Of a stretch of DNA of 26,278 nt, positions 2,669-25,987 are shown in pieces (the first letter of the stretch is position 1; each line of letters begins with the position of its first letter). Source of the DNA: a virus. The notes below the pieces were generated by a model. It was not told the DNA's origin, ran no database searches, and saw nothing but the letters and a program-made list of their open reading frames with translations. Location of the stretch: positions 1 through 26,278 of IMG/VR virus record IMGVR_UViG_3300010354_000543; one strand, given 5' to 3'. Made by a program: the position numbers and the translations under genes.

Positions 2669-5600
2669 ATGACGGGTATATTCCAAATCCTTTTGGCTGG
2701 CACTCAAGCCGGGCCTACTATCCTTGCTGACTACCTAGTAGTAGCGGGTGGTGGTGGTGGAGGTTCTTATATTGGAGGTGGTGGCGGTGCTGGTGGATAC
2801 CGTGACTTTTCATCTCAAACATTAGCCGTTGGAACTGCATACACCGTAACTGTCGGTGCTGGTGGTGCGGCTGGTGCTGCTACTGGAGTAAGGTCTGGAA
2901 CAGGTAGCAATTCAGTTTTTAGTAGCAATACCGCTAATGGAGGTGGTGGAGGCGCTGGATATTCATCTGGAGCAAGCCCTAGTCAATATGCTCCACAAAC
3001 AGGAGGTTCTGGTGGTGGAGGGGATTACGTTGGAACTAAAACTGGAGCCGCTGGTAACACGCCATCAACATCTCCATCCCAAGGAAACAATGGGGGCAAC
3101 GGTGAAGACACCGGAGTAGCGGGAAATGCTGGTGGAGGCGGCGGTTCTGGTTCGGTAGGTGGAAATGCAAATGATGGCGCTCAAACTGCTGGCAATGGGG
3201 GAAGTGGGACTGCATCTTCTATTACAGGCTCATCTGTTACAAGAGCGGGCGGTGGCGGCGGTGGCTCACAAGGACAAACTGCCGGTACAGGCCAAGGCGG
3301 CGGTGGTAATGGAACAAATAATAATAATACTGCTGGCTCTGGTACTGCCAACACAGGTGGCGGTGGTGGAGGCGGTGGATATGCAAGTGGGAATGGTGGT
3401 TCAGGTGGCGCTGGTGGATCAGGTATTGTCATCATCAAAATTCCATCTACGCACTATGCCTCATTTTCATCTGGTGTAACTTCATCTCTCTCGACTGCTG
3501 TTGCGGGATACAACGTATACACAGTCACGGCTACTTCTACAACGAGTGAGACTGTGACTTTCCTTGCTGGCGCACCTATAAGCGACTTGCTTGTGGTTGC
3601 TGGCGGCGGGGGTGGTGGCGTGATTGGGGGTGGTGGTGGAGGTGCGGGTGGTTATAGAACTAGCACAACACAATCTATTGCCTTTGGGATTCCCTATACA
3701 GTCACAGTAGGTGCTGGCGGGACTGCGGGAACTAGCGTTAACGGCGGGAATGGCTCTAACTCTGTTTTCAATACCTTTACCTCCACAGGTGGCGGTGGCG
3801 GTGGCGGCGATACTCGGTTTAGTAGCGGAGTAGCCAAATCAGGTGGCTCTGGTGGTGGTGGCGGTGGAGGAAACTGGGGAACGGAAGCCGCTGGCGCTGG
3901 AAACACTCCGTCAACATCTCCATCTCAGGGTAATAACGGTGGAGCAGGAAGCCCATCCTCTCCAAACTGGGGAGGTGCTGGTGGAGGCGGTGCGGGTGCT
4001 ACGGGTGGCAACGGATCATCAACTACTGGTGGTACTGGGGCGGCTGGTACTGCGTCAAGCATTACCGGTTCTAGCGTAACTAGAGCAGGTGGAGGCGGCG
4101 GCGGTACATATAACGGCGGCACAGCGGGTAATGGTGGCTCTGGAGGCGGGGGCAACGGCGGTGTTTATCTAACACCCGGAACAGGTTCCGCTGCTACTAG
4201 TGGAACTGCTAATACCGGAGGTGGAGGTGGTGGCGGTGGAATTTCTGGTGGTTCCGCACAGTCTGGCGGCGGTGGTTCTGGAATTGTCATTATTAAAATA
4301 CCTGACAACATTGGCGCAACATTTTCTAGCGGTGTTACATCTAGCCTGTCCACATCCGGTGGGTTCAACATCTACTCTGTAACCGCTACGTCTACTACAT
4401 CTGAGACTGTGACGTTTGCAAGAGTGTTTACTGTTACTGATCTGTTGGTTGTCGCTGGAGGTGGTGGTGGTGGTGGAGGAGATGGTGGTGGGGGCGGTGG
4501 AGGTGGTGCTGGCGGTTATCGCACATCAACAACAACATTGGTTGCGCTTGAAACTTCGCACACCATTACCGTTGGAGCTGGAGGTGTTGGAGGTACTTTT
4601 TCTACCCCAACAAACTCACAATCCGGAAACAATTCTGTTTTTTCATCCATAACTTCTGCCGGTGGCGGTAGAGGTGGTGCTGGCCCAACTTCTAGCGGTT
4701 TTTTACAGGCTGGCGGCAACGGTGGTTCTGGAGGTGGTTCTGGTAATGCTACTCCGGGCTTTAGCGGGGGAACTGGAAATACACCCTCTACATCTCCAGC
4801 ACAAGGAACAAATGGTGGTAATTCATCAATACTTACGCCGGGATTCAACGGTGGCGGTGGCGGTGGATCAACTTCTGCTGGTGGCAATGGTTCAGGTAGT
4901 GCCGCTGGGGCTGGCGGTGCTGGAACTGCAAACTCAATTACCGGTTCGTCTGTAACCTATGCTGGTGGCGGTGGTGCTGGTTCTGGATACAACAATAACA
5001 ATGGTGGTGGAGCCGGTGGCTCTGGAGGCGGGGGTGCTGGTAGCGCAAGTTCATCTGTGGGTGGTACTGCTGGAACGACAAACCGTGGTGGGGGCGGTGG
5101 AGGTGCAAACAGCGGCGGGTCTGGTGGTAACGGCGGTTCAGGTATCGTAATCTTCAAAATACCTAGCGCATATCGTGCGACATTCTCTGGCGGTGTTACC
5201 TACTCTGTATTGTCTACAAGCACACACCTGATTTACTCAGTCACGGCTACAAGCACGACTAGCGAGACAGTTAGTTTTGTGCAAAACACCGAGACACTTA
5301 CTACGGATTACTTGGTGGTGGCGGGTGGTGGTGGGGGTGGTTCTTATAACGGCGGGGGTGGCGGAGCCGGGGGTTATCGTAACTTTACTTCTCAATCACT
5401 TTCTGCTGGAACCGCATACACCGTAACTGTTGGTGCTGGTGGTACGGCTGGCGGTGCAGGAACAAGCACAAGGTCTGGAACTGGAAGTAATTCAGTTTTT
5501 AGTAGCAATACCGCAAACGGTGGAGGCGGCGGTTCTGGATATTCTGCTTCGACAAGCCCAACATTATATGCATCTCAAACTGGTGGTTCTGGCGGCGGAG

Positions 5601-6136
5601 GTTCTGGTGGAAGTAATTCTGGAGCCGCTGGTAATACTCCATCTACAAGCCCTTCACAAGGTAATAGTGGTGGTAACGGAGAGAGCGTTGGCAATGTAAA
5701 CGCTGGTGGCGGGGGCGGTTCTGGTGGGAATGGTGTAAGTGCAACTGATACTGTTGCTGGTAACGGCGGTGCTGGTACTGCATCTTCAATCACAGGTTCA
5801 TCTGTCACACGGGCTGGTGGTGGTGGCGGTGGTTCTGAAGGGCAAACCGCTGGAACAGGACAAGGTGGTGGCGGTAACGGAACTAATGGAAATACCGCTG
5901 CTACTGCTGGTTCTGCCAACACAGGTGGTGGTGGGGGTGGAGGTGGGTATGCAAGTGGTTCTGGAGGTTCAGGTGGCGCTGGCGGCTCCGGTGTCGTAAT
6001 CATCAAGATTCCCGACACCTACACAGCAGCCTTCTCATCCGGTGTAACTTTTACTGGTGGCTCTGCAAGCGGTGGTTTCAGGGTCTATACCGTGACCGCA
6101 ACATCTACAACTTCAGAAGTCGTAACATTTATTTAA
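2669..6136 (+). CDS. Glycine-rich repeat protein (putative adhesin/fibre tip), 1155 aa
   Basis: After about 20 N-terminal residues the protein consists of four homologous units starting near residues 21, 306, 591 and 880. Each opens with D-(Y/L)-LVVAGGGGGG, continues through long Gly-rich runs with GGAGGYR, the TVTVGAGG motif, NTPSTSP and SSITGSSVT, and closes with GSGIVI(I/F)KIP. A Ser/Thr beta segment then leads to TATSTTSE before the next unit. Such glycine-rich domains occur in many environmental phages. In adhesins such as Salmonella phage S16 gp38, glycine-rich strands pack as a polyglycine-II sandwich that presents receptor-binding loops. I infer a similar role here because the gene follows a tail fibre with TAA and ATG directly adjacent. 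A scaffold or surface decoration role is possible. An AGGAAA site lies about 10 bases before the ATG. Confidence 0.75.
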   Translation: MTGIFQILLAGTQAGPTILADYLVVAGGGGGGSYIGGGGGAGGYRDFSSQTLAVGTAYTVTVGAGGAAGAATGVRSGTGSNSVFSSNTANGGGGGAGYSSGASPSQYAPQTGGSGGGGDYVGTKTGAAGNTPSTSPSQGNNGGNGEDTGVAGNAGGGGGSGSVGGNANDGAQTAGNGGSGTASSITGSSVTRAGGGGGGSQGQTAGTGQGGGGNGTNNNNTAGSGTANTGGGGGGGGYASGNGGSGGAGGSGIVIIKIPSTHYASFSSGVTSSLSTAVAGYNVYTVTATSTTSETVTFLAGAPISDLLVVAGGGGGGVIGGGGGGAGGYRTSTTQSIAFGIPYTVTVGAGGTAGTSVNGGNGSNSVFNTFTSTGGGGGGGDTRFSSGVAKSGGSGGGGGGGNWGTEAAGAGNTPSTSPSQGNNGGAGSPSSPNWGGAGGGGAGATGGNGSSTTGGTGAAGTASSITGSSVTRAGGGGGGTYNGGTAGNGGSGGGGNGGVYLTPGTGSAATSGTANTGGGGGGGGISGGSAQSGGGGSGIVIIKIPDNIGATFSSGVTSSLSTSGGFNIYSVTATSTTSETVTFARVFTVTDLLVVAGGGGGGGGDGGGGGGGGAGGYRTSTTTLVALETSHTITVGAGGVGGTFSTPTNSQSGNNSVFSSITSAGGGRGGAGPTSSGFLQAGGNGGSGGGSGNATPGFSGGTGNTPSTSPAQGTNGGNSSILTPGFNGGGGGGSTSAGGNGSGSAAGAGGAGTANSITGSSVTYAGGGGAGSGYNNNNGGGAGGSGGGGAGSASSSVGGTAGTTNRGGGGGGANSGGSGGNGGSGIVIFKIPSAYRATFSGGVTYSVLSTSTHLIYSVTATSTTSETVSFVQNTETLTTDYLVVAGGGGGGSYNGGGGGAGGYRNFTSQSLSAGTAYTVTVGAGGTAGGAGTSTRSGTGSNSVFSSNTANGGGGGSGYSASTSPTLYASQTGGSGGGGSGGSNSGAAGNTPSTSPSQGNSGGNGESVGNVNAGGGGGSGGNGVSATDTVAGNGGAGTASSITGSSVTRAGGGGGGSEGQTAGTGQGGGGNGTNGNTAATAGSANTGGGGGGGGYASGSGGSGGAGGSGVVIIKIPDTYTAAFSSGVTFTGGSASGGFRVYTVTATSTTSEVVTFI
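2729..6136 (+). repeat. Four tandem ~850-bp coding repeats
   Basis: Unit starts are at 2729, 3584, 4439 and 5306, giving spacings of 855, 855 and 867 bases and a final unit of about 830. Units 1 and 4 are the most alike: both contain SGTGSNSVFSSNTANGGGGG, and they share an identical stretch of over 20 bases inside that segment. The order of similarity (1 with 4, not 1 with 2) suggests shuffling or gene conversion after the first duplications. Confidence 0.85.
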
Positions 6137-6718: not shown

Positions 6719-7016
6719 TTGGAAAATTACCGAATTAAAAGTCGATGACGGTTTGGTTTGCCAAGTCAAATACCATTGCGAGGCTTCCAATAACGGCAAA
6801 TCTGTATCCACAGAGGGCTACTGGAAGTTTCGTAAACCGTACCAAATAGAAGATAATTTGTCCGAGCATCAGGTGTCCCATTGGGTTGATATGGATGCCC
6901 AAGAAGGTGACCGCCACCTCATTAAAGACAGGCTTGCCGAACAACTCAAGGCACTAGACAATACCGAGAGCTGCGATCCACCGTGGAAAGTAGAGACATT
7001 TAAGGTGAAGTTATGA
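6705..7016 (+). CDS. Small phage protein of unknown function, 103 aa
   Basis: The protein begins [13 protein letters not shown] and is rich in charged and aromatic residues, with alternating beta-like segments followed by a helix near residues 70-90 ([11 protein letters not shown]). Short proteins opening with this W-x-I-x-x-L pattern occur widely in environmental phages, where they are uncharacterised. The GTG start at 6705 is preceded by GGAG and lies inside the end of the previous gene. The stop overlaps the ATG of the gp4-like gene as ATGA. Expression is therefore tied to both neighbours. Confidence 0.6.
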
Positions 7017-7981
7017 CTCAGCCAATAGACATCATTAGCCGCGCCATGAAGGACATTGGGGCGCTGGCTGCGGGCGAGACCCCGGCCCCTGCGGAAGCCC
7101 AAGACGCGTTTGATATGTTGAACGACATGATCGACCAATGGTCAAACGAGCAGATGATGGTCTACTACAAGACCGAGATCATCTTCACCCTGACTGCGGG
7201 ACAGACCCAGTACACGGTTGGCCCAACGGGTCAGGTCAACTCCACCTTTACCGGCTCAATATCAGGGAATACCCTAACGGTCACTAACATTACCGAGGGC
7301 GGGATTGCGCTTGGGATGGTGATAACAGGATCAGGAATTACGGCTGGAACCAAGATCACAGGCTTTGGAACCGGAGCTGGCGGGAACGTAAACTACACCG
7401 GGACGTACACGGTTAACAACACCCAGACCGTAGCCTCGACCACAATAACCGCTTATTACGAGCGCCCCCTGTCGGTGAACTCAGCCTTTGTGCGGGTGAA
7501 CACTAATTCTAACGGTCAGCCTATCGTCAACGGCGGTCTGGACTACCCGGTAGCTATTCTAAACCTTGAGAACTATGAGCTGATTGGCCTAAAGACCCAA
7601 AACGGCCCGTGGCCCAAGGCGGTCTACTACCAGCCCTCTGAGGTTATGGGTACGTTCTACTTTTGGCCCAACCCGTCACAGGGCGAGATGCACATATTCT
7701 GCGACACCATATTCCAGCGTTTTAATAGCATCAACGACACCATCGTGATCCCGCAGGGCTACATCATGTGCTTGCGCTGGTGCTTGGCTGAAAGACTTAT
7801 GCCCATGTACGGCAAGTCCAACCCCCAGCAGCTCGCCATGATCAACGGGCTTGCGTCTCAGGCCAAGGCAACGATCAAACGCACGAACATGAAGCCCATG
7901 CAGTCCGCTAGGTACGATGACGTTCTGGTGGTTGGTAAGCGTGCGGACGCTGGTTGGATTCTGACCGGGGGCTTTCAGTAA
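7013..7981 (+). CDS. P22 gp4-like tail accessory / head-completion protein, 322 aa
   Basis: In P22 this protein binds the portal after packaging and begins tail assembly. The helical N-terminus ([16 protein letters not shown], then [15 protein letters not shown]), the [10 protein letters not shown] segment, and a C-terminal domain with [14 protein letters not shown] and a helix near residues 240-285 match the gp4-like family found before gp10-like genes. Residues about 79-147 are an inserted Gly/Thr-rich beta module that also occurs twice in the next gene. Without it the protein would be about 253 aa, compared with 166 for P22 gp4 itself. The ATG overlaps the preceding stop (ATGA). The identification rests on remembered family pattern and gene order. 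Confidence 0.75.
7247..7453 (+). repeat. Inserted beta module, copy 1 (in gp4-like gene)
   Basis: This copy encodes 69 residues opening [13 protein letters not shown], then [15 protein letters not shown], and closing with [12 protein letters not shown]. The same pattern appears in copies 2 and 3 in the next gene. Modules of this type are scattered in virion proteins of many environmental phages. Confidence 0.8.
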
Positions 7982-9852
7982 TGCCTGACTTTGGATTCGT
8001 AGGCGCGGCTTACGAGGCTCCCTCAATCACTCAAGACGCTCAAGAGTGCATCAACTTCTACCCTGAGATGGACCCGACCAAGGCTCAAGGCGAGCGCGGT
8101 ATCGTTGCGCTCTACCCAACTCCGGGGCTTGAGACCGTGGCTATTTTTCCCAATCAGGAAGAAGTCCGAGGTCTTAGAACCCTGTCTGGGGGACAACAAG
8201 TAGTCGCGGTCTGCGGTGACTTTGTGTATGTCTTGGAAAGCGATTTGACCCCCGTAATGATTGGTCAGATGAACACCTCAACCGGTCAGGTAGGCATAGT
8301 TGATAACGGGGTGAACGTCTACATCGTGGACGATTCCTACCGCTACACATGGTTTATCAGCGCCCCGTCATCAGCCATTTTTACCGGATCAATTACTGGA
8401 ACTACCTTGACCGTGACCGTGATGCAAAGCGGGACTATTGCGGTTGGACAGGCCATTTTTGGTCAGGGCATAGCTCAAAATTCCGTGATTACGGCACTAG
8501 GAACTGGATCAGGAGGCGTTGGAACCTATACGGTTAGCGACTCCCAAACCGTTGCAAGTACCGCAATCAACTCTGTCGCATCACCCGCTATTGTGACCGG
8601 AGCTATATCTGGCACAACTTTGACCGTTAGCGCGGTGACCAGCGGCACTCTGAAGATAGGCCAAACGATTGAAGGCTCCGGGGTGACCGATGGAACTATT
8701 ATCACGGCGTTTGGAACAGGCTCTGGAGGCGCGGGAACGTACACCGTCAGCGCCTCCCAGACGGTCTCTAGCACCACGATATACGCGCTTAACTGGACGG
8801 TGCTTCCATCTACAGACGGAGCCTTTGAGGGCGGTGGAACGGTAGATATTTCGGACAACTACTTTGTCTACAATAAGCCCAATAGCCAGCAATGGGCTGC
8901 GTCCGACCTTTTATCCCCCATTACAGACCCTTTGTCGTTTGCGTCTAAGGATGGCTCACCAGATGACCTAGTGGCTATCATCGTTGACCGCCGCGAGGTC
9001 TACCTACTAGGTGAAATGAGTTCAGAGGCTTGGCTTGACGTTGGTTCCGTCCCCTTTCCATTTCAGAGGATTCAAGGATCAAGCACCCAGCAGGGTATTG
9101 CTGCGGCCTACTCCTGTGCGCGGGTAGGTAATTCCTTTGCTTATGTATCCAAGAACAACCGGGGCGAGGCCACCATCGTCCAAATGAACGGCTACATCCC
9201 CCAGAGGATCTCGACCCACGCGGTTGAGACCACCTTAGTCGGTCAAGACGTATCTGACGCGATTGCGTGGACGTACCAGCTAGAGGGCCATGAGACCTAC
9301 GTTGTGACGTTCCCCTCAATCGGGACTAACGGCCTGACTTGGGCCTATGACATCACCACAGGACTTTGGCACAAGTGGCTCTACACCAATAACCAAAACG
9401 AGTACGAGCGCCACCGGGGTAACTGCTGTGCATTTTTTAACCAGCAAGTATTGCTTGGTGACTATGAGAACGGCAAACTTTATAGACTGTCTCTATCACA
9501 GTACACCGATGACGGTCAGCTAATACGCCGTGTCAGAAGGTGTCCCCACATAACCACAGACCTCCAGCGTCAGTATTTTGCCGAGCTTCAGATCCAGTTC
9601 CAGCCCGGAGTAGGTTTATCCACCGGTCAGGGTCAAGACCCACAGGCGATGCTCCGCTGGTCGGATGACGGGGGCTTTACTTGGTCTAACGAGAACTGGG
9701 TCACCATAGGCAAGCAGGGTCAGTATTTCACGCGAGCCATGTGGAGGCGGCTAGGGTTTGCGCGGGACAGGATATTTGAGGTGGTGATCACCGACCCAAT
9801 CAAGGCGGTCATTGTGTCTGCGAACCTAAAAGCGGAAGCAGGGGATAACTGA
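7981..9852 (+). CDS. P22 gp10-like packaged-DNA stabilization / tail protein, 623 aa
   Basis: gp10 of P22 joins gp4 to the tail needle and plugs the filled head. The start [15 protein letters not shown] with ECINFYPE is characteristic of this family. The middle contains [17 protein letters not shown] and [17 protein letters not shown], and the C-terminus has the beta-propeller-like pattern [15 protein letters not shown] and [14 protein letters not shown]22 gp10 is 472 aa. The excess here is largely explained by two tandem modules at residues about 134-197 and 205-269, the same module as in the gp4-like protein. I chose ATG 7981, which overlaps the previous TAA, over an upstream TTG at 7954. 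A G-rich site lies about 10 bases before it. Confidence 0.8.
8380..8571 (+). repeat. Inserted beta module, copy 2 (in gp10-like gene)
   Basis: This copy encodes 64 residues opening [13 protein letters not shown], with GTYTV and QTVASTAI at the end. It is the direct counterpart of copy 1 in the preceding gene and of copy 3, which follows 21 bases later. Confidence 0.8.
8593..8787 (+). repeat. Inserted beta module, copy 3 (in gp10-like gene)
   Basis: This copy encodes 65 residues opening [13 protein letters not shown], then [16 protein letters not shown], and closing with [13 protein letters not shown]. The residue match with copy 2 is obvious, while the codons differ at many positions, so the duplication is not very recent. 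Confidence 0.8.
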
Positions 9853-16003: not shown

Positions 16004-16444
16004 ATGGCAGATCCAGCCTCGACTGCCAGAGCAGCTTTAGAAGGAATTAAAGAAGCCGTCAAAGTTGGTCGCGAGATCAAACAGACCGGGGCAGAGGTCT
16101 CATCGTTCCTTGATGAGGAAGCCAAGGCTAGGGTAGCGTGGAAAAAAAAGCAGCTCCAGCTAGAGAGGCGTGGAGACCTAGTATTTATTGACGCTGCCAA
16201 CGAATACCGTGAAGTCCGCAAGATCCGAGCCGCCGAGCAGGGTATGTACGAGGACATGGAACGAGAGTTTGGCAAGACCGCTGTCACAGAAGTGCAATCT
16301 TTAATTGCTCAAATGCGAAAAGAACGCAAGGTTCTTGATCATGATTTTCAGCGTTTTCGGGCTGAAGAACGGATTATTTGGATAACAATTTTTGCGGTAT
16401 CGGCTATCTTTTATGGGGTGCTTAAAGCAACAGGGGCTTGGTAA
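16004..16444 (+). CDS. Tail-anchored membrane protein of unknown function, 146 aa
   Basis: Residues 1-110 are long charged helices (KARVAWKKKQLQLERRGDL, REVRKIRAAEQGMYEDMERE) with coiled-coil character. A single hydrophobic helix lies at about 124-142 (IIWITIFAVSAIFYGVLKA) and the protein ends GAW. No signal peptide is visible, so it is probably a C-terminally anchored protein facing the cytoplasm. It starts immediately after the preceding stop (TGAATG) and its own stop overlaps the next ATG. Neighbours on both sides suggest a lysis or membrane-remodelling context, but I do not recognise the family. Confidence 0.55.
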   Translation: MADPASTARAALEGIKEAVKVGREIKQTGAEVSSFLDEEAKARVAWKKKQLQLERRGDLVFIDAANEYREVRKIRAAEQGMYEDMEREFGKTAVTEVQSLIAQMRKERKVLDHDFQRFRAEERIIWITIFAVSAIFYGVLKATGAW

Positions 16445-16887
16445 TGACCACGATTGCCGCTAAATTTTCTACTCTTGAGATTGCCAGCGATAGCATGATT
16501 AGCGGCGATGACTCGTTTTACCTTTCTGAAAAGTTACGCCGTGGAAAGGATTGCATATACGGCGCTTGCGGTGATTGGGACAAGATTTTAAAGTTTTATC
16601 AAGTAATGGAATTAGGTGGAGAGTTAGATTCTGATATTGACGTTACAGTTCTTGAACTCAGGCACGATGGTATTTGGATATACGAAAGTACCATCATTCC
16701 TGCGCGAATTAAGAACCCGTTTTGGTCAATCGGAACCGGAGCCAACTTTGCCATCGCTGCGCTCCATTTGGGAGCATCGCCAAAAGAAGCTGTTGAGATT
16801 GCTTGTATGTATGACTCAAGTTCTCATGGCCCAATTGACGAAATGAAATTGCAAAGGAAACCCCGTGGCACTAAAAAGAGTATCTGA
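16444..16887 (+). CDS. HslV-like Ntn-hydrolase peptidase, 147 aa
   Basis: The protein looks like a compact proteasome-type beta subunit. After Met removal it starts TTIAAKF, matching the HslV N-terminal TTI in which Thr1 is the nucleophile. IASDSMISG aligns with the HslV segment IAGDGQ (catalytic-site Asp), and the Lys of SEKLRRG with the active-site Lys. IYGACGD aligns with IAGFAGG, and SIGTGANFAIAAL with the IGSGG...ALAAA helix. Thr2, Asp16 and Lys30 are the expected key residues. HslV is about 175 aa, so this version is about 30 residues shorter. HslV needs the HslU ATPase, and none is encoded here. It could work alone, use host HslU, or process virion proteins. ATG 16444 overlaps the previous TAA, and an upstream TTG at 16438 would mask the Thr. 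Confidence 0.7.
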   Translation: MTTIAAKFSTLEIASDSMISGDDSFYLSEKLRRGKDCIYGACGDWDKILKFYQVMELGGELDSDIDVTVLELRHDGIWIYESTIIPARIKNPFWSIGTGANFAIAALHLGASPKEAVEIACMYDSSSHGPIDEMKLQRKPRGTKKSI

Positions 16888-17806
16888 CGAAGAAATTATT
16901 ACCGCAATGAAACGGTTTGGCAGCACCAAGCTGGCTGCTGAATTCGTTGGTATGTCTGTGCGTGGTTTTGGTCAGCGCAAGGCTAAGATCCAAATGGATC
17001 GCGGAATACCTCTACCGGCCTACTGTGCGCCACAAGAAAGCAAGCGCAATACATACATACCTGAGAACCGCAGGGTGATAGAACACACAGTAGAAAACGG
17101 TCACGTTTTTATTGCTAGTGACTGTCATTACTGGCCCGAAGAATCAACCACAGCACACAAGGCGTTTGTTTCCCTGCTAACTGAATTTAAGCCTAAAACA
17201 ATTGTGCTTAACGGGGATGTCTTTGATGGGGCTAGAATCAGCCGTCACGCCTCCCTGATGGGAACGAACCCCCCAACACCAAAACAAGAAATAGAAGCCT
17301 GTCAAGACCGGCTAGATGAGATTGCGAAGGCATCAAAGAACGCAGTCAAACTGTGGACTTACGGCAACCACGATGTGCGCCTCTTTAACTACATTGCTCA
17401 GAACGCACCAGAACTATCAGAGTTCAGCGACCTGTTTGCGTACTTTCCGGGTTGGCACACGGGGTGGCGAATTGATGTGAATGGCTCGGTAATTATCAAG
17501 CATCGCTATCACAACGGGATACACAGCACTTGGAATAATGCCCTGAAATCGGGGCGGTCGATAATTACGGGTCACTTACACCAGCTCAAAATCACACCCT
17601 TTAGTGATTACGATGGTCGTAGGTGGGGGGTCGATGCCGGGACGCTTGCGGAGCCATATTCAGACCAATTCACTTACACCGAAATGAACCCCGTCAACTG
17701 GTGTTCAGGGTTTTGTGTATTAACTTTTGAGAATGGTAAGTTACTGCCGCCAGAGCTTTGCGAGGTTATTAACGGGGTGGCTTACTTCCGTGGTCAGCGC
17801 GTATGA
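16865..17806 (+). CDS. Calcineurin-like metallophosphoesterase with N-terminal HTH, 313 aa
   Basis: The metal-binding motifs of the family are all present in order: D86-C-H88, G117-D-V-F-D121, G167-N-H-D170, H213 (IKHRYH) and G236-H-L-H239. These coordinate two metal ions for phosphoester hydrolysis, as in MPP/Mre11-type enzymes. Residues 1-45 form a helix-turn-helix-like unit (ITAMKRFGSTKLAAEFVGMS) that may bind DNA, which would suggest a nucleic acid substrate. The start is GTG 16865 with AAGGAAA about 5 bases upstream, 23 bases inside the peptidase gene. The substrate is unknown. Similar phage proteins are usually annotated only as metallophosphatase. Confidence 0.85.
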   Translation: MALKRVSDEEIITAMKRFGSTKLAAEFVGMSVRGFGQRKAKIQMDRGIPLPAYCAPQESKRNTYIPENRRVIEHTVENGHVFIASDCHYWPEESTTAHKAFVSLLTEFKPKTIVLNGDVFDGARISRHASLMGTNPPTPKQEIEACQDRLDEIAKASKNAVKLWTYGNHDVRLFNYIAQNAPELSEFSDLFAYFPGWHTGWRIDVNGSVIIKHRYHNGIHSTWNNALKSGRSIITGHLHQLKITPFSDYDGRRWGVDAGTLAEPYSDQFTYTEMNPVNWCSGFCVLTFENGKLLPPELCEVINGVAYFRGQRV

Positions 17807-17949
17807 GCCCGTGGCTGATCATTCTGGTTGGGTGTGTATATGCATACATAGGTTTTGAACAGGGAGCAAAAGGGAACCTAGGAATGGCTATTGTTTTTGC
17901 CGGTTACGCTTTTAGCAATATCGGTCTCTATTTAGCAACGAAAGGATAA
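17803..17949 (+). CDS. 48-aa two-helix membrane protein
   Basis: A short frame opens MSPWLIILVGCVYAYIGFE, then a polar turn QGAKGNLG, and a second hydrophobic helix (AIVFAGYAFSNIGLYLA). The KGN-G-AI-FA-YA--N-GLY pattern resembles tiny conserved membrane proteins found upstream of holin/endolysin genes in other environmental phages. The ATG overlaps the phosphoesterase stop as ATGA, and the next ATG follows its TAA by 2 bases. Tight packing and clean two-helix hydropathy support a real gene. It may be a holin accessory or antiholin; this is inference from position. Confidence 0.65.
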   Translation: MSPWLIILVGCVYAYIGFEQGAKGNLGMAIVFAGYAFSNIGLYLATKG

Positions 17950-17951
17950 AA

Positions 17952-18392
17952 ATGTTACCAATCGCAGCTCTGCTATCTATAGGGGAAAAGGTTCTTGACA
18001 AGGTTCTGCCCGACCCAGCCGCCAAAGCGGAAGCACAGGCCAAGCTCATGGAAATGGCTCAGAAGGGTCAGCTTGCAGAACTAGAGGCCCATGTCAAGGA
18101 AATGGACTCAGCCCGTAAGCGCGAGATTGAAATTGCTACCAGCGAGTTTGCGCCAACTATCAATAAAATTATTACGCCAATTTTAGCGTTAGGTACAGTT
18201 TCTTTGACTTTTATACTTTTCTTGGTCATCATTTTTGTAGAGGTCAACACCCAATCAAAAGACATTCTTATTTACGTTCTGGGTGCGCTGACCTCTGCCA
18301 TGACTATGGTTTTGGGTTATTACTTTGGGTCTAGTCAGGGATCTAAAGAAAAGTCCCAGCAGCTCGATGAGATTATGGGCAAGAAGAAATGA
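17952..18392 (+). CDS. Holin of the 3TM superfamily, 146 aa
   Basis: Holins form the inner-membrane lesion that releases or activates the endolysin. Residues 1-65 are amphipathic and charged (KAEAQAKLMEMAQKGQLAEL, KEMDSARKREIEIA), which matches the N-terminal pattern of the 3TM holin family. Two strong transmembrane helices follow at about 72-97 and 105-126, separated by NTQSKD, and the sequence YYFGSSQGS after the last helix is typical of the family. The C-terminus is basic (MGKKK), as in many holins. It sits directly upstream of the M15 peptidase with an ATGA overlap. Confidence 0.85.
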   Translation: MLPIAALLSIGEKVLDKVLPDPAAKAEAQAKLMEMAQKGQLAELEAHVKEMDSARKREIEIATSEFAPTINKIITPILALGTVSLTFILFLVIIFVEVNTQSKDILIYVLGALTSAMTMVLGYYFGSSQGSKEKSQQLDEIMGKKK

Positions 18393-18826
18393 ACCTATCC
18401 GAACACTTTACCTATGATGAGCTGACCCGGTCTGAAACCGCCGAGCGTAACGGCTGGCTCAACATTCCTAGTAACGCGGAAAAAGAGAACCTGATCCGTC
18501 TGGCGGCGCTATTAGAACAGGTCAAGGCTGCGGTCGGGGGCAAACCCGTAATGATCAACTCGGCCTTTCGGTCGAAACAGGTCAATGACGCTGTAGGGTC
18601 TAAGGACACCTCCCAGCACCGTCTAGGTTGTGCGGCTGACCTACGGGTTCCCGGCATGAAGCCTAGAGAGGTTGTAGAGGCTTGTATAGCGGCCTCTGTG
18701 CCGTTCGATCAGATCATCCTAGAGTTTGACTCATGGACGCACATCAGCGTCCCAAACACCCCGGAAACGTCCCCACGCGGTCAGAAGCTAATAATTGACC
18801 GGCAGGGGACTCGGGCTTACAGTTAA
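18389..18826 (+). CDS. Endolysin, peptidase M15A family, 145 aa
   Basis: This is a zinc D-Ala-D-Ala carboxypeptidase-like enzyme that cuts cell-wall peptide cross-links. The motif S75-Q-H77-R-L-G-C-A-A-D84 supplies two zinc ligands and W117-T-H118-I-S the third. NSAFRSKQVN at 57-66 matches the family's upstream conserved loop. The N-terminus LSEHFTYDELTRSETAER is the usual start of single-domain phage M15A lysins, and the length is normal. No signal peptide is present, so export depends on the upstream holin. A strong terminator follows 24 bases after the stop, marking the end of the plus-strand late region. Confidence 0.9.
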   Translation: MNLSEHFTYDELTRSETAERNGWLNIPSNAEKENLIRLAALLEQVKAAVGGKPVMINSAFRSKQVNDAVGSKDTSQHRLGCAADLRVPGMKPREVVEACIAASVPFDQIILEFDSWTHISVPNTPETSPRGQKLIIDRQGTRAYS

Positions 18827-18850
18827 GGCACTCCTCAAGCAGCACCCTTG

Positions 18851-18874
18851 ACCCCCTTTTGGGGGTTCTTTTTT
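18851..18874 (+). terminator. Rho-independent terminator after the lysis genes
   Basis: ACCCCC and GGGGGT form a 6-bp stem with a TTTT loop, followed by TTCTTTTTT. This is a classic intrinsic terminator for plus-strand transcription. The opposite strand has no T-tract after the hairpin, so it should act mainly on the virion/lysis transcript that converges with the minus-strand operon. Confidence 0.85.
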
Positions 18875-25543: not shown

Positions 25544-25737
25544 ACTGCGGGACTTGTAGGTTCTTTCTGGCAAACCAGAAGTTTGGAATGTGCCAGCGGT
25601 ATCCTGAGTATGTAATGAAGCAAGACACTCAATGGTGCGGGGAGTATCAGTCCAAGGACACCCCGGAGATCAACCCTAAACCACGCAAAAGAAATGATAA
25701 GACCTCTGAGAGACCGGATTCTAGTCAAGCCGATTGA
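25540..25737 (+). CDS. Small Cys-rich protein, 65 aa
   Basis: The N-terminal 35 residues hold four Cys: CGTC (3-6), GMCQRYP (18) and WCGEY (33), the arrangement of a small zinc-binding or Fe-S-like unit (C-x2-C-R-F...C-x-R-P...W-C). The C-terminal 30 residues are polar, with Lys, Arg, Pro and Asp, and are likely disordered. Such proteins recur in phage replication regions with unknown function. The GTG start overlaps the previous stop as GTGA. It ends 44 bases inside the GroES gene. Confidence 0.6.
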   Translation: MNCGTCRFFLANQKFGMCQRYPEYVMKQDTQWCGEYQSKDTPEINPKPRKRNDKTSERPDSSQAD

Positions 25738-25987
25738 GCGCGAAAAGAGCGCAATCCTTGAAGTAATCATGCGGGAAAACCCGAACATGGGCGAGGTGGT
25801 TGCTGTTGGGCCGGGAGAGTACGACAAGAAGGGTCGGATCATTCCTAACCCCTGCGAGGTAGGTCAGAGGATTCGCTACGGAACAACAGGCGAGTACCTG
25901 ACGTTCCAAGAAGTAGAGCAAGAAGGCCAAAAACTGCTTATGATGTCATGGAAGGATGTGTGTTGGATCGATGAAAACAACCAATAA
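25694..25987 (+). CDS. groES: Phage GroES-like co-chaperonin, 97 aa
   Basis: The Cpn10 signature is clear: MIRPLRDRILVKPIERE at the start, GEVVAVGPGEYDKKG in the middle, VGQRIRYG, and the ending EGQKLLMMSWKDVCWIDE. The segment between 16 and 32 (REKSAILEVIMRENPN) is where the mobile loop that docks on GroEL should be; it differs from bacterial loops. Co-chaperonins such as T4 gp31 replace host GroES to fold phage capsid proteins. The same is likely here, with host GroEL as partner, since no GroEL is encoded in the window. The gene lies ahead of the presumed packaging and capsid genes. Confidence 0.88.
   Translation: MIRPLRDRILVKPIEREKSAILEVIMRENPNMGEVVAVGPGEYDKKGRIIPNPCEVGQRIRYGTTGEYLTFQEVEQEGQKLLMMSWKDVCWIDENNQ

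Follow-up and report, generated by a model that had tools for sequence, protein, structure and literature searches.

A PPH-family proteasome-like hydrolase and its overlap with a metallophosphoesterase gene in one phage clade

The PPH gene and its neighbours

The window analysed here is a stretch of viral DNA of 26,278 nucleotides (IMG/VR record IMGVR_UViG_3300010354_000543, positions 1 to 26,278). An intact reading frame on its + strand (16444..16887) starts with ATG and encodes a 147-aa PPH-family protein, a proteasome-like Ntn hydrolase, with MTTIAAKFSTLEIASDSM as its first residues. The start of the gene shares one base with the TAA of the upstream gene, and its 3' end runs into the next gene, which starts with GTG at 16865. 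Use of an alternative in-frame TTG at 16438 would give a protein of 149 aa with Thr2 buried. Since M-T-T is the N-terminus of every aligned relative, the ATG at 16444 is the likely start and the TTG probably is not. All aligned relatives have Thr as the residue next to the initiator Met, and there is no propeptide. A first-pass annotation of this DNA had reported a 147-aa frame with an N-terminal Thr and the Asp and Lys of an active site, and these were confirmed as the conserved residues T2, D16 and K30.

The + strand block was found to consist, in order, of a tail protein, a small protein, a coiled-coil/TM-like protein, PPH, an HTH-metallophosphoesterase, a 48-aa ORF, a holin and an M15 endolysin, in agreement with the neighbours named in the first-pass annotation. 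The protein directly upstream of PPH (16004..16444, +) is coiled-coil-like with a C-terminal hydrophobic, TM-like segment; these features were read from its sequence and carry no family assignment. The metallophosphoesterase (16865..17806, +) has an N-terminal HTH-like segment, and its gene shares 23 nt with the 3' end of PPH. Its metal motifs SDCH, GDVFD, GNHD and GHLH are all intact by eye, and its predicted structure (pLDDT 75) gave superfamily-level matches only (PolD, Rv0805, PP5 and SbcD/Mre11; TM 0.3-0.45). It is followed by the 48-aa membrane-like ORF (17803..17949, +), the holin (17952..18392, +; GTA_holin_3TM, PF11351, E 5.9e-7; PHROG 3427) and the peptidase M15 endolysin (18389..18826, +). 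A terminator-like hairpin (18850..18867, +), detected by consensus scan only, closes the block.

Elsewhere in the window, the ORF at 25694-25987, which starts with MIRPLRDRILVKP, resembles, by its sequence, a phage-encoded GroES co-chaperonin. A stretch of about 65 aa rich in glycine and threonine occurs once in a 322-aa protein (7013-7981) and twice in the adjoining head-closure Hc3 protein (7954-9852), and it also matches tail-fibre PHROGs. A 1155-aa protein of long glycine-rich repeats (2669-6136) adjoins a tail-fibre-like ORF (68-2668).

Family assignment, fold and active site

The window protein matched PHROG 1040, 'peptidase HslV family', with an E value of 1.4e-24. The single sequence gave no significant model in a Pfam search and no match to the curated HslV models TIGR03692 and NF003964 in an NCBIfam search; the curated models matched 2 of 21 relatives weakly. 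A profile built from 21 relatives matched HslV (E 1.8e-10), 20S beta5 (3e-9) and BPH, the beta-proteobacterial proteasome homologue (1.2e-8), in the PDB. Relatives were found in 505 phage records at E up to 1 and in 380 at E up to 0.05, many of them annotated as HslV-family peptidases. HslV genes without HslU have already been remarked on in a paper on Salmonella jumbo phages (PMC7823757).

Structure was predicted with AlphaFold2 from 30 sequences, comprising the window and IMG/VR loci, and the resulting model of PPH had a pLDDT of 91 and a pTM of 0.85. The top VIA-align match was E. coli HslV (Z 19.6, 138 residues, rmsd 2.3); in that alignment Thr2, residue 2 of the model, coincides with the nucleophile Thr1 of HslV. 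Next came 20S beta subunits and BPH with Z about 17.5. Foldseek ranked BPH at the top, with HslV close behind. In the model, the likeness to the HslV fold is far beyond chance. The structure prediction against HslV suggested in the first-pass annotation thus came out in favour of a proteasome fold, and the HslV-like fold called there was right. The model has helices at 45-57, 100-108 and 113-123 only. A single helix, H1 (45-57), lies between strands 37-43 and 67-73, and H2 is absent, which accounts for most of the approximately 29 residues by which the protein is shorter than HslV; the earlier estimate of about 30 was correct. The window protein thus shares the fold, the nucleophile position and the catalytic positions with HslV, but it lacks H2 and the pore segment, having one helix in place of the H1/H2 pair that leads into that segment.

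PPH has been described as a separate family of proteasome homologues in which H2 is reported to be absent (PMC8665760). The published family consists of proteins of about 140 residues from Caudovirales phages without an AAA+ partner, and the window protein, with 147 aa, resembles it in every respect compared. The core Thr1, Asp17, Lys33 and oxyanion Gly47 correspond to T2, D16, K30 and G43. A propeptide is likewise missing, and in the model H1 is present, H2 absent and H3/H4 present. The source also agrees: PPH comes from tailed phages or prophages of bacteria, and the window comes from a virus record in which tail, holin and endolysin genes are present. No difference was found that would separate the protein from PPH; the overlap with an HTH-metallophosphoesterase gene in the window clade is unmentioned in the paper. 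Because H2 is absent and the protein fits the published description of PPH (PMC8665760), its filing under HslV is not supported. By that description the window protein belongs to the PPH family and the family name HslV is wrong; the kind of protein is thus already known. No function of any PPH was shown in the papers that we found; PMC12345140 (on a T7-like kinase), PMC10386132, PMC13299392 and PMC13232217 were unrelated or silent on PPH.

Conservation was determined on an alignment of 100 distinct relatives drawn from IMG/VR and from phage records. Thr2, Thr3, Asp16, Gly97, Gly99, Gly110, Ala116 and Asp124 were invariant (100/100), Lys30 was found in 99 of the 100 and Gly43 in 94%; since the relatives were collected by similarity, with one search seed covering residues 1-8 and seeds of later scans touching 12-19 and 37-45, conservation at the seeded residues was partly selected for. 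Lys30 and Asp124 are less affected, though in the Jerseyvirus set one seed runs across the region around Asp124. Positions 98 and 127, those of the accessory hydroxyls (Thr98 and Ser127 in the window protein), were occupied by Ser or Thr only across the 100 relatives. T2, D16, K30 and G43 are in register with Thr1, Asp17, Lys33 and Gly47 of the proteasome, and T98, D124 and S127, matched by position only, presumably stand for the Ser129/Asp166/Ser169 group. The intact threonine active site proposed from the first reading was therefore supported (T2 and D16 in 100/100, K30 in 99/100). The median pairwise dN/dS of PPH was 0.074 (503 pairs) and that of the neighbour gene 0.073; PPH is under purifying selection.

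Other branches of the proteasome fold were compared as well. BPH (5OVS, 5OVT, 5OVU), like the window protein, has neither a propeptide nor an ATPase partner, and it shares similar FW.IG.G and DxSS..PID segments. It differs in having both H1 and H2, a long acidic pore loop and a 14-mer assembly, whereas H2 and the long loop are absent from the window model. RPC also lacks H2, but a C-terminal extension is absent from the window protein; longer relatives that carry such extensions (phi92, VnaP, phiA047) look like the RPC family of PMC8665760 and may belong there. Connectase belongs to the same fold family and has lost the helices of the H1/H2 pair, and it is a monomeric ligase with a two-helix insertion over its active site (PMC8665760). 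PPH could accordingly be a non-protease, that is, a ligase, a transferase or a binding protein on a proteasome fold, in keeping with connectase and with the lack of protease activity of BPH in vitro (PMC5777263). We regard this as highly improbable: unlike connectase, the window model retains H1 and has no cap-like insertion above the active site, and the full conservation of the catalytic positions speaks against a purely binding role.

When bacterial genomes were scanned with the window protein, the only relatives to emerge were cyanobacterial (Anabaena, 174 aa, M-S start). These are longer in the H2 region and CPH-like, and were rejected as PPH proper. Locus L099 (4638-5162; also L100 and L101) encodes a 174-aa CPH-like cyanobacterial proteasome homologue with an M-S start, for which a serine nucleophile would be expected; it has 49-51% identity to the window protein across 42 residues.

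Gene context among relatives

The HslU profile TIGR00390 matched in 14 of 14 control genomes and in none of 19 PPH-bearing records (the window, nine IMG/VR relatives and nine complete phages). Because the window is itself a fragment, the lack of HslU there is weak evidence; the complete phages carry more weight. Of the earlier designation 'HslV without HslU', the gene content thus held, and the family name has to be replaced by PPH. The first-pass annotation had also raised the use of host HslU. In such a case PPH would dock on or mix with host HslU/HslV and redirect ATP-dependent degradation. HslV being the strongest fold match in VIA-align and the lack of an own HslU in PPH phages both agree with such borrowing. 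However, the model lacks both H2 and the segment next to it, and the HslU-contact residues have been lost even in BPH, which keeps H2 (PMC5777263). We therefore consider host HslU an improbable partner, made less likely by the absence of H2.

Gene order was compared across distinct loci whose PPH has an identity of 55% or more. Of the 94 with enough flank, 86 have a phosphoesterase gene that overlaps the PPH end. A profile of the coiled-coil family placed it directly upstream of PPH in 33 and directly after the phosphoesterase in 39 of 80 loci, together 72/80. Occupancy of the window position was lower for the other genes: 40/97 loci for the coiled-coil gene, 39/90 for the 48-aa ORF, 29/84 for the holin, 20/79 for the endolysin and 6/90 for the second gene upstream. 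Against this turnover of the other neighbours, the pair of PPH and phosphoesterase stands out. In locus L107, an exception, the gene after PPH likewise overlaps it and encodes another phosphoesterase-class protein, of the PHROG 7339 'DNA repair exonuclease' type (1.9e-46). Since relatives of the phosphoesterase with no more than 40% identity were found without PPH, the pairing is a clade feature, and shared ancestry explains part of the linkage because the loci come from one group of related phages. What is new is the overlap of PPH with the HTH-metallophosphoesterase and the adjoining coiled-coil gene in one phage clade.

In the published survey of proteasome homologues, no gene context was reported as suggestive (PMC8665760), and the lack of a common PPH location among more distant phages agrees with it. 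A single conserved location was rejected, PPH being found near terL, head-tail, PhoH/lysozyme, holin or unknown genes depending on the lineage. A conserved upstream partner across all phages was rejected too, as the upstream proteins, compared by eye, differ between lineages. In phage DSL-LC04 and in two IMG/VR loci, three loci in all (L082 5589-6453, L105, L161), PPH directly follows and overlaps an HNH endonuclease-like gene, away from lysis genes.

PPH adjoins terL in phiM5 and CcrSC and lies among head-tail genes in Gungnir39, BUCT006 and KLPPOU148, positions that would suit a protease that matures head or tail proteins. Its place in Jerseyvirus and in the window clade is instead ahead of holin and endolysin genes. 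The phiM5 record marks portal, scaffold and capsid as present in the particle and leaves PPH unmarked, which is weak evidence because proteases need not stay. Virion maturation, another use put forward in the first reading, received no positive support, with no association with head genes across lineages, and we think it unlikely.

The neighbourhood also invites the idea that PPH, the coiled-coil membrane protein and the metallophosphoesterase form a lysis-linked module that tunes lysis timing by degrading a regulator. The three genes stay together in permuted order in the 72 of 80 loci with other neighbours turning over, PPH of Jerseyvirus directly precedes two holins, and the coiled-coil homologue of DSL-LC04 adjoins a holin and an M15 gene. 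On the other hand, PPH is separated from the coiled-coil gene in DSL-LC04 and lies far from lysis genes in other lineages, the phosphoesterase resembles a nuclease/phosphatase-class enzyme without a known lysis role, and the loci represent one clade, whose shared ancestry accounts for part of the linkage. We hold such a module to be doubtful. Still more speculative, and in our view very unlikely, is that the three proteins form one machine, a membrane-recruited, ATPase-free late mini-proteasome whose task would be to control the timing of lysis or to remove a specific host factor.

Proposed role of PPH in infection

The reading that we favour, with a probability of roughly 60%, is that PPH is a late-expressed, HslU-independent threonine peptidase, a small homo-oligomer acting on unfolded or specific polypeptides. 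In the scheme that we infer, PPH would be made from the late/lysis block along with the HTH-metallophosphoesterase, and host methionine aminopeptidase would strip Met1 to expose the Thr as the N-terminal nucleophile, which Lys30 and Asp16 would activate. In the model the beta-sandwich is kept together with the H3/H4 face, which joins two rings in relatives, and H2, the helix leading into the pore segment in HslV, is lost. Given this loss of H2, PPH most likely works without HslU. The small homo-oligomer would then cut polypeptides of the phage or the host, either unfolded or specific ones, at a late stage of infection.

Removal of Met before Thr1 has been shown for the propeptide-less BPH (PMC5777263), and by analogy the Met-Thr start suggests the same for PPH. 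An altered pore motif in HslV can yield unregulated activity, as reported in PMC8665760, and among the three uses proposed in the first-pass annotation, unregulated action, here read as independence from HslU, appears the best. Late expression is suggested by the position of PPH between tail and holin/endolysin genes, with the terminator-like hairpin after the endolysin; it may not hold across the family because the location of PPH differs between phage lineages. The main warning comes from BPH, which is inert in standard assays despite an intact site (PMC5777263), so that an intact site does not guarantee activity. The loss of H2 might also block ring assembly.

The family itself has already been described, and the novelty is limited to the gene context in one clade. 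Relatives occur in about 500 phage records, most of them from Salmonella Jerseyvirus and from phi92-like phages of E. coli and Klebsiella. The neighbourhood of PPH, phosphoesterase and coiled-coil gene and the pre-holin position in Jerseyvirus offer concrete deletion targets in phages of laboratory strains.
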